Assembly (NCBI GenBank): GCA_018716725.1
Contig: DVJP01000076.1
Location: 17,165 to 81,164 of the forward strand
From: Candidatus Merdivicinus excrementipullorum
Lineage (GTDB): Bacteria > Bacillota > Clostridia > Oscillospirales > Ruminococcaceae
Reading direction: 5' to 3'
Length of the DNA stretch: 64,000 nt
Numbering within the stretch: the stretch's first letter is position 1; every line of letters begins with the position of its first letter. Under the pieces are notes generated by a model. It worked only from the letters and a program-made list of their open reading frames with translations, was not told the DNA's origin and made no database searches. Position numbers and translations under genes: made by a program. Positions 30,590-39,135 of this stretch are shown here, in pieces.

Positions 30590-30937
30590 TTGGGAACCAA
30601 ATTGGGCACAGCCAACTTAGAGGCCGGTTATCCCACTGTGGCGGAGGCCTTAAAACACCTGAATTTTGAAATCCGCCACGCCAAAGCCGCCGGATGCCCT
30701 GTCTTAAAGATCATCCACGGCTACGGCTCCACAGGGACCGGCGGGAAAATCCGGCCCGCCGTCCGGAAACGCCTTTGGGAAATGCAGGCCAAAAGCCAGG
30801 TGAAAGCGGTGATTCTGGGGGAGGATTTTTCCATTTTCAACGACAGCACCCGGCTGGCCTTCCAGCTTTGCGGCGCCCTCCGCCGGGACCCGGATTTGGA
30901 ACGCCGCAACCAGGGCATTACCCTGGTGATTTTGTAG
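30590..30937 (+). CDS. Smr/MutS2-type domain protein
   Basis: LKIIHGYGSTGTGGKIRPAVRKRLWEM; TTG start; stop TAG lies in a repeat unit. Confidence 0.8.
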   Translation: MGTKLGTANLEAGYPTVAEALKHLNFEIRHAKAAGCPVLKIIHGYGSTGTGGKIRPAVRKRLWEMQAKSQVKAVILGEDFSIFNDSTRLAFQLCGALRRDPDLERRNQGITLVIL

Positions 30938-31005
30938 AGGCGGATACCTACCATCCGCCCACAGAATATCAGGTATTGGGGACGATGTGGGCATCGTCCC
31001 CTACA
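30933..31005. repeat. MITE-like TGTAGAGG...CCCCTACA unit (73 bp)
   Basis: Inner GGCGGAT..ATCCGCC and GGGGACGATGtgggCATCGTCCCC hairpins. Confidence 0.85.
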
Positions 31006-31032
31006 TTTTTATTGAAACGTCCCGGATAAATT

Positions 31033-31112
31033 TGTAGGGGCGGGGTTTCCCCGCCCGCTGGTAAATCGTGACGTTTCTCCAAAACCGCGGGCCGGGCGAC
31101 CCGGCCCCTACA
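31033..31112. repeat. MITE-like TGTAGGGG...CCCCTACA unit (80 bp)
   Basis: Inner GGCGGGGTTTCCCCGCC and GGGCCGGGCGACCCGGCCC hairpins. Confidence 0.85.
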
Positions 31113-31138
31113 ATTTTTCGGAAGAATTACAAAACCTC

Positions 31139-31180
31139 TTGACAAATGTATCCACTAACGATAGGATATAAGTGGATACA
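31139..31180 (+). promoter_or_regulatory. Promoter plus inverted-repeat operator, RHH cassette B
   Basis: TTGACA (31139)-17-TAGGAT (31162); TGTATCCACT (31147-31156) / AGTGGATACA (31171-31180). Confidence 0.85.
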
Positions 31181-31196
31181 GAAAGGAGGGAATGGA

Positions 31197-31367
31197 GTGT
31201 CCCCAAAAGGCAGGCCGACCAATGACCCGAAAACCCTGAGCACACGAATCCGTCTTTCGGAGGAAGATGTCAAAAGGTTGCAGTTCTGTGCAGAAAAGAC
31301 CGGGATGACCAAAGCCGAAGTAATTCGTTCCGGGATTCGGGAAATGTACGACCGGTTAAAAAAATAG
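31197..31367 (+). CDS. Ribbon-helix-helix protein, cassette B (56 aa, GTG start)
   Basis: (M)SPKGRPTNDPKTLSTRIRLSEEDVKRLQFCAEKTGMTKAEVIRSGIREMYDRLKK; RBS aaggaggg. Confidence 0.85.
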   Translation: MSPKGRPTNDPKTLSTRIRLSEEDVKRLQFCAEKTGMTKAEVIRSGIREMYDRLKK

Positions 31368-31428
31368 ATGTAAGCCGCACCCTTGCAAAACCGCAGCCTA
31401 CATCTATACCCGACGAGAAACCCCGTCT
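31359..31428 (-). ncRNA. Predicted convergent small RNA, cassette B
   Basis: Minus-strand TTGACA (31458-31463)-17-TAAAAT (31435-31440); 12-bp terminator stem 31367-31404 then TATTTTTTT. Confidence 0.6.
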
Positions 31429-31479
31429 GAAATTATTTTACATCAGATGGGCCTTCTTGTCAACCGGTGAGCCGCCGGT

Positions 31480-37838: not shown

Positions 37839-37876
37839 GCTGCATTTTCCGACCCGACGAAGCATTCCGAATAAAT

Positions 37877-37948
37877 TGTAGGGGCGGTTGTCACCACCCG
37901 CCCGCAGAATACGAAATATAGGGGACGATGTGGGCATCGTCCCCTACA
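37877..37948. repeat. MITE-like TGTAGGGG...CCCCTACA unit (72 bp)
   Basis: Terminal repeats plus GGGGACGATGtgggCATCGTCCCC. Confidence 0.85.
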
Positions 37949-37977
37949 ATTTTTTTCGGGAGATTTTGAAAAACCTC

Positions 37978-38020
37978 TTGACTTTTTGTGTAACAAAAAT
38001 TATAATATTATTGTGGCACA
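37978..38020 (+). promoter_or_regulatory. Promoter plus operator-like dyad, RHH cassette C
   Basis: TTGACT (37978)-17-TATAAT (38001); TGTGTAACAA (37987) / TTGTGGCACA (38011), 8/10 inverted. Confidence 0.7.
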
Positions 38021-38036
38021 GAAAGGGGGAGGGAAA

Positions 38037-38210
38037 TTGAGTCCACGTACTGGCCGGCCAAAATCAGAAAACCCTAAATCCTTCGAAATTAAAGCCCGAA
38101 TTGACGCGGAAACAAACCAACGATTGCAAAAATTCTGTGACAAAACAGGAAAAACGAGGACACAGGTTGTTAGAGAAGGAATAGAACTGATTTTGGCTGA
38201 AAAAAAGTAG
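38037..38210 (+). CDS. Ribbon-helix-helix protein, cassette C (57 aa, TTG start)
   Basis: (M)SPRTGRPKSENPKSFEIKARIDAETNQRLQKFCDKTGKTRTQVVREGIELILAEKK. Confidence 0.83.
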   Translation: MSPRTGRPKSENPKSFEIKARIDAETNQRLQKFCDKTGKTRTQVVREGIELILAEKK

Positions 38211-38285
38211 AGCTTCGGCCCACCTTGCAAATGAAACCGAAACTCTATGCCAGACGAGCAACCCTTATACAAGAACTCCCGTCTG
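38201..38285 (-). ncRNA. Predicted convergent small RNA, cassette C
   Basis: Minus-strand TTGACA (38315-38320)-17-TATACT (38292-38297); terminator stem 38209-38246 then ACTTTTTTTC. Confidence 0.6.
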
Positions 38286-38451
38286 AAATTTAGTATACAT
38301 CAGATGGGCCTTCTTGTCAACCGGCGAGCCGCCGGTCGCAATTCGCCGCGGCGTTTCAATTCCTATCCAACCGCCGGGCGGCGAAATAAATTCGCCGATT
38401 CGATGGGTTTCATCTTCTAGCGTTTTGGTAGAACGAAACAGGTAACAAATT

Positions 38452-38532
38452 TGTAGGGGCGGATGCCCACATCCGCCCGGTTTTTCAAACATTTCCGAAA
38501 ATCGCGGGACGATGTGGGCATCGTCCCCTACA
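38452..38532. repeat. MITE-like TGTAGGGG...CCCCTACA unit (81 bp)
   Basis: Inner GGCGGATGcccaCATCCGCC and GGGACGATGtgggCATCGTCCC. Confidence 0.85.
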
Positions 38533-38558
38533 TTTTTTCGGAAGATTTGCAAAACCCC

Positions 38559-38602
38559 TTGACATTTGTGTTCTCAAATGATAGGATATATGTGTGCTCG
38601 AA
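38559..38602 (+). promoter_or_regulatory. Promoter plus direct-repeat half-sites, RHH cassette D
   Basis: TTGACA (38559)-17-TAGGAT (38582); TGTGTTCTCAAA (38567) and TGTGTGCTCGAA (38591) in direct orientation, 24 bp apart. Confidence 0.65.
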
Positions 38603-38616
38603 AGTGAGGTGATCCA

Positions 38617-38790
38617 ATGAGCGCAAAAATGGGCAGACCTACGGATAATCCCAAAACAGAAGTCATTAAAATCAGAGCAACCAAAGACGACAGAGAAAAG
38701 TTGTTATTTTGCTGTGAAAAACTGGGCAAAACCCAGTATGAAGTCGTGATGGAAGGAATCAATAAGGTCTACCAAAAAGCCAAAAAATAA
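38617..38790 (+). CDS. Ribbon-helix-helix protein, cassette D (57 aa; absent from the ORF track)
   Basis: MSAKMGRPTDNPKTEVIKIRATKDDREKLLFCCEKLGKTQYEVVMEGINKVYQKAKK; RBS gtgaggtg. Confidence 0.83.
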   Translation: MSAKMGRPTDNPKTEVIKIRATKDDREKLLFCCEKLGKTQYEVVMEGINKVYQKAKK

Positions 38791-38853
38791 GATGTAAGCC
38801 GCACACTTGCAAATCCGCAGCCTACATCTTGTATACGACGAGAAATCCCGTCT
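38782..38853 (-). ncRNA. Predicted convergent small RNA, cassette D
   Basis: Minus-strand TTGACA (38883-38888)-17-TAAAAT (38860-38865); terminator stem 38791-38828 then TTATTTTTTGG. Confidence 0.6.
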
Positions 38854-38908
38854 GAAATTATTTTACATCAGATGGGCCTTCTTGTCAACCAAAAAAGGAG
38901 GAACAACG

Positions 38909-39135
38909 ATGTACACAATGGAAGATTTATGGTTTCATGTATGGAAAATGAACAGGATATGCCGGAAACCAAGCTGGCCCGGCTTAAGTTTCAGGAACAG
39001 ATGGAAAAGCTCCTAAGTTCTGCCGATTGGCGGGAAGCCGAACCTTTGTGGAGCCAGTGCGCCAGCGCCTTTGAGTGCCAGGGCTTTCTCATGGGCTTCC
39101 GCACGGCGCTGAGGCTCCTGTTTCAAAACGTTTGA
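38909..39135 (+). pseudogene. Possibly frameshifted small DUF6809-like gene
   Basis: RBS aaaggagg + MYTMEDLWFHV in one frame; MENEQDMPETKLARLKFQEQMEKLL...FECQGFLMGFRTALRLLFQNV in the -1 frame. Confidence 0.4.

Follow-up and report, generated by a model that had tools for sequence, protein, structure and literature searches.

A multicopy RHH repressor and antisense RNA cassette in Candidatus Merdivicinus excrementipullorum resembles a phage antirepressor control module

The 64,000-nucleotide stretch of the Candidatus Merdivicinus excrementipullorum genome analysed here (the window) carries four cassettes, A to D, each containing a gene for an RHH protein and a convergent antisense RNA (sRNA). 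Cassette B as a whole runs from about 31139 to 31463. Its RHH (CopG/Arc-type) repressor gene (31197..31367, plus strand) has a GTG start and encodes 56 amino acids, with a match to Pfam RHH_1 above the cut-off (E=1e-4). A promoter scan placed the promoter of this gene at 31139..31179 on the plus strand (TTGACA at 31139-31144 and TAGGAT at 31162-31167), and an operator scan found a perfect dyad within it, GTATCCAC..GTGGATAC (31148-31179, plus strand). The dyad is presumed to be the operator of the cassette B RHH protein itself, an inference for which there are no binding data.

On the minus strand lies an antisense RNA of ~72 nt (31358..31429), the 5' end of which (31429) is an estimate from the -10 element. 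It comprises a 6-bp hairpin 1 (31412-31427), a long terminator hairpin (about 31364-31407) and a U-run down to 31358, for which the final Lys codons of the convergent RHH gene serve as template. Its promoter (31435..31463, minus strand) consists of TTGACA (31463-31458), a 17-nt spacer and TAAAAT (31440-31435), and agrees with the sigma-70 consensus at 11 of 12 positions, where chance alone would give 0.4 promoters for the region. Reading the minus strand from 31463 to 31358, the -10 is followed by CAGACGGGGUUUCUCGUC, then AUAGAUGUAGGCUGC..GCGGCUUACAUCUAU and then the U-run. The plus-strand copy of this promoter, P+ (31441-31463), corresponds to the anti-Shine-Dalgarno (anti-SD) segment of intact modules. 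The minus strand of cassette B folds at -32.3 kcal/mol (z -7.5), compared with -18.2 for the plus strand. A simple terminator scan did not call the terminator hairpin, probably because it permits only limited stem and loop geometry, and an Rfam scan of the whole window matched no family.

An earlier note, made from the sequence alone, had proposed a convergent minus-strand RNA with its promoter at 31359-31463, a stem fully paired on the minus strand with two G.U pairs, and a -10 of TAAAAT rather than TATACT behind the same spacer as in cassette A. All of this held: the element spans 31358-31463, the stem has 12 bp, and the 23 nt of -35 and spacer are identical in all four cassettes, whereas the -10 is TAAAAT for B and C but TATACT for A and D.

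The other three cassettes share this arrangement. Cassette D (about 20640-20977) has an RHH gene at 20698..20880 (plus strand), matching Pfam RHH_3 and RHH_1 above the cut-off, and an antisense RNA with promoter at 20873..20977 (minus strand). Cassette A (about 37980-38320) has an RHH gene with a TTG start (38037..38210, plus strand) and an antisense RNA with promoter at 38201..38320 (minus strand); neither A nor D has a downstream ORF. In cassette C (about 38557-38888), the RHH gene (38617..38790, plus strand) and the antisense RNA with promoter (38783..38888, minus strand) are followed by a small DUF6809-like ORF (38909..39135, plus strand) that is broken by a frameshift; intact paralogues of it occur elsewhere in the genome (L007, L009 and L011). 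Thus, none of the four cassettes has an intact version of this downstream gene (ORF2), and as cassette B lacks one its cis target is absent. We also observed a decayed cassette at 25250-25420 (minus strand), in which a C-terminal piece of an Arc-type RHH protein (KTKAEWLNAKIDEELSK) and a terminator of the ACAG..CUGU type remain, whereas the TTGACA sRNA promoter is missing. Palindromic GC-rich repeats (GTAGGGGCGG..CCCCTAC) lie around the cassettes, at 25037-25495, 30940-31110, 37870-37960 and 38440-38545, and may mediate cassette rearrangement.

Within the genus, nine copies were found in the source genome and thirteen in the genome of a sister species, Candidatus Merdivicinus intestinigallinarum (DVOW01 contigs), with none in the five other genomes examined. 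The module has been multiplied to at least nine chromosomal sites in the source genome, mostly without the gene it formerly controlled; cassette B and several others have kept just the RHH gene and the sRNA. The backbone around the window is syntenic with the sister species, in which cassettes B and C occupy different positions, indicating that cassettes move or recombine. In the comparison of 30935-31465 and 38534-39116 with the sister contig (G004:C61; L111-L113), B was also inverted relative to the shared backbone. The RHH proteins diverge widely between cassettes, and the genes are under purifying selection (pN/pS 0.08 across ten homologous pairs from the two genomes). The sRNAs of the genome fall into three terminator-stem classes, with hairpins and terminators shared within a class. 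ORF2 in the genus bears only a weak likeness to DUF6809, under the Pfam cut-off, and searches of the source genome found no Bro-N or Rha antirepressor.

Both hairpins covary strongly, whether the sequences were aligned without a structure, fitted to one or held out from model building. Across 31 sequences, 98.8% of cells were paired and 15 of 16 pairs showed two-sided changes, giving a covariation score of 0.911 compared with 0.257 in shuffles (0/500). For 22 relatives outside model building, the score was 1.052 versus 0.236. Both of these alignments were fitted to the model structure; when the genus copies were aligned with MAFFT without such fitting, hairpin 1 was paired in 100% of cells and included a G-C to A-U double change. 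The strand is also indicated by G.U pairs, of which folds of the 53 copies contain 227 on the sRNA strand and 23 on the plus strand; for 51 of these copies, folding is more stable on the sRNA strand. The earlier note had taken the minus-strand RNA to be the functional one and had named a lack of covariation across many copies as what would refute this; covariation was found, supporting the claim. Its statement that the stem pairs only on the minus strand held in part: the asymmetry is real, but the wording is slightly too strong because the plus strand retains a weaker hairpin. The note had not identified the parent system, an RHH-sRNA-antirepressor control module. Spacing is constrained as well. 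The promoter spacer is 17 nt in nearly all copies, the RHH stop lies 91-110 nt from the outer edge of the -35, and ORF2 starts 110-138 nt after the RHH stop in 40 of 41 copies. A YUNR (U-turn) motif in the terminator loop (34 of 53 copies, about 24 expected) is suggestive only.

With covariance models, relatives emerged in further families of the class, and also in annotated phages of Streptococcus and Fusobacterium. Model R1 recovered one or a few copies in further genera and families of the order, and R2 recovered further copies within the class once false ones had been removed; a search of 300 genomes across the phylum added a single weak match (L114). When the RHH protein was compared with phage records by tblastn, Streptococcus, Fusobacterium and Clostridioides difficile phages were found. 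In Javan166, Javan362, phiJH1301-1, Funu2 and Javan119, an RHH gene is followed, across a gap of ~110-122 nt and an optional small ORF, by an annotated antirepressor or Rha, and R2 recognised the RNA in all five regions. The C. difficile phage phiCDIF1296T has this gene layout, but its intergenic RNA was not recognised by R2, and Javan129 has the RNA without an antirepressor directly downstream. Most relatives share the order RHH, antisense RNA, an optional small ORF and a Bro-N or Rha antirepressor. Pfam searches of ten proteins from relatives identified nine downstream proteins as Bro-N or Rha; only the small ORF of L058 gave no match at E 0.001. In L066, L085 and L096, ORF2 is the antirepressor itself. 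In the annotated phages examined, the RHH gene is either recorded as a hypothetical protein or left out of the annotation, and the RNA is unannotated. A scan of IMG/VR with the genus-type promoter found no phage contig, and a PDB sequence search with the RHH protein returned designed repeat proteins only.

Several candidates were discarded for want of an RHH gene, namely L055 and the weak R2 matches L097, L098, L100, L101, L103, L105, L107, L108 and L109. Two of these, L097 and L109 (G093), encode a small hydrophobic peptide, MDY[LF]TLILIIIILYYID, alongside a convergent RNA, an arrangement reminiscent of type I toxin-antitoxin loci; L105 has a near-identical RNA, with no peptide ORF found there. 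Separately, locus L088 (phage contig MT835941) carries a skipping-rope RNA (RF02924) at its positions 966-1045, 5' of its RHH gene.

Operator dyads or repeats overlap the RHH promoter and track the sequence class of the RHH protein. TRIR-type proteins accompany GTATCCAC in six members, each from a different genome or phage, and this operator is common to distant relatives with similar RHH beta-strands; QLKIRAD-type proteins accompany GTGTACAC in three. That the two classes change together supports RHH autoregulation. This covariation of beta-strand sequence and promoter operator across members also suggests natural orthogonal repressor-operator pairs.

In the leader of intact modules, P+ can pair with the SD of ORF2: CCUUCUU with AAGGAGG in the genus, UUUUCUGUCAA with UUGACAGGAGA in L064 and ACACUUCUUUU with AAAAGGAGUGU in L083. 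It can also pair with S', the complement of sRNA hairpin 1. Both pairings are locus-specific across 28 loci, some of which are related to one another: the mean for P+:SD was -13.05 kcal/mol for own partners and -8.94 for permuted ones (0/5000), and that for S':P+ was -20.6 versus -12.4 kcal/mol (0/5000). S':SD, the negative control in the same test, was not significant. Among the 27 loci from outside the genus, blocking the sRNA footprint lowered predicted SD accessibility in 26, and the mean went from 0.28 to 0.09. As blocking can only favour P+:SD, this drop shows consistency rather than proof, and as the free leader is already predicted to be mostly closed in several loci, the switch is not equally clear everywhere. 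Direct binding of the sRNA to the SD, which we had considered first, was rejected: S:SD improved only marginally on permuted partners (-9.3 versus -8.0) and was much weaker than P+:SD; moreover, the estimated 5' end of the sRNA lies >50 nt upstream of the ORF2 start, so the sRNA would not cover the SD directly.

These computations establish the anatomy, the covariation and the two competing pairings; in the absence of expression data, transcription, binding, repression and RHH operator binding are all inferred. In the mechanism we propose, the RHH protein would repress its own promoter. The antisense RNA, whose own promoter lies between the two genes and directs transcription towards the RHH gene, would pair with the RHH-ORF2 mRNA. 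Without the sRNA, S' would pair with P+ and leave the ORF2 ribosome-binding site free; with the sRNA on S', P+ would pair with that site and translation would stop. The locus-specific pairings lead to the prediction that the antisense RNA shuts translation as a pre-emptor, like that of pSK41 or pT181, and mutually exclusive leader pairings of which one closes the SD meet, computationally only, the criterion for control of this type. To our reading, the new element, again computational, is that the mRNA-strand copy of the sRNA promoter spacer constitutes an anti-SD segment.

A less likely alternative is a conventional antisense RNA that merely forms a duplex with the mRNA, leading to RNase III cleavage or to transcriptional interference with the RHH transcript and leaving P+ and SD without a role. 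It remains possible: the RHH-ORF2 intergenic mRNA and the sRNA are fully complementary, the sRNA is transcribed convergently with the RHH gene, and solo cassettes retain the sRNA without any SD. However, duplex formation alone does not require locus-specific P+:SD and S':P+ pairing, and the distance from the estimated sRNA 5' end to ORF2 excludes direct cover of the SD. A second possibility, also less likely, is action in trans, in which sRNAs from the multicopy solo cassettes of this genome would shut down the mRNA for ORF2 or an antirepressor encoded by another cassette or an incoming phage. The sharing of hairpins and terminators within classes, the retention of RHH genes and hairpins without ORF2, and the failure to find a Bro-N or Rha antirepressor in the genome favour it; against it, the IMG/VR scan gave no phage contig bearing the genus-type promoter, and recent duplication could also explain the identity of copies. 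A type II toxin-antitoxin-like pair, with an RHH antitoxin, an ORF2 toxin and an extra RNA, is very improbable: the RHH protein is weakly similar to RelB-type antitoxins, but every toxin-antitoxin match fell under curated cut-offs, ORF2 is a DUF6809-like protein or an antirepressor, and RHH persists without ORF2. That the hairpins are DNA features, such as a recombination or transposition end, could be invoked for the differing positions of B and C in the sister species but is extremely improbable, since the strand skew in G.U pairs, the constantly spaced sigma-70 promoter and the U-run all fit RNA.

We therefore regard the cassette B site as very likely the cis-antisense RNA of a phage-derived control module for an RHH repressor-antisense RNA-antirepressor operon, without expression data to confirm it. 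For the orphan cassettes, silencing in trans is the most interesting of the possibilities, and decay after duplication cannot be excluded, although the RHH genes are conserved. A bolder reading, in which the orphan cassettes are a domesticated, multi-class set of RNAs acting in trans to shut off the antirepressor operons of related incoming phages or prophages, we consider unlikely; if true, it would represent RNA-based superinfection immunity built from copied phage control modules. The multicopy orphans raise the question of trans-acting immunity. If the main reading is correct, many temperate phages of Gram-positive bacteria and Fusobacterium share a two-level lock on antirepressor expression that includes an RNA switch whose anti-SD and sRNA promoter are one and the same DNA segment. 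The covariance model and pairing rules make this switch directly testable.

Antisense control of an antirepressor is already known from the sar RNA of P22, and the open-access literature we searched yielded P22 sar, pMV158 and pSK41 but no account of this RHH-sRNA family, an absence that is not proof. In pMV158/pLS1 (copG-RNAII-repB), an RHH repressor is likewise combined with a counter-transcribed intergenic antisense RNA that acts on a second gene (PMC5703833, PMC4485353). However, RNAII has 48 nt and one hairpin, and its complement lies immediately upstream of the ribosome-binding site; our module has no Rep gene, its downstream proteins being DUF6809-like, Bro-N or Rha rather than a rolling-circle initiator. 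P22 immunity I (arc-sar-ant; RF00262) is closer, with the same gene order and orientation, a small RHH repressor gene directly 5' of a convergent antisense RNA of ~70 nt with two hairpins, a terminator abutting the repressor stop codon, and an antirepressor downstream in the same operon, as in the phages and most distant relatives of the module though not in the window. The Rfam sar model, which finds P22, did not match this RHH-sRNA family. The module also differs from P22 in often having a small ORF before the antirepressor, in its orphan chromosomal copies and in its Gram-positive and Fusobacterium hosts. Its sRNA promoter lies upstream of the downstream ribosome-binding site and not inside ant; the estimated sRNA 5' end is too far upstream for the sRNA to cover the antirepressor site as in P22, and control must therefore be indirect. 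Such control is described for pSK41 RNAI and pT181, in which the antisense RNA pairs with the leader and frees a segment that sequesters the ribosome-binding site (pSK41) or forms a terminator (pT181) (PMC5703833). Those systems act on plasmid rep genes and have no RHH gene in the described module, whereas in our module the sRNA promoter also serves as the anti-SD segment. In our best explanation, the module is the Gram-positive counterpart of P22 arc-sar-ant, combining pSK41/pT181 logic (PMC5703833) with the arc-sar-ant gene layout (PMC2629481).
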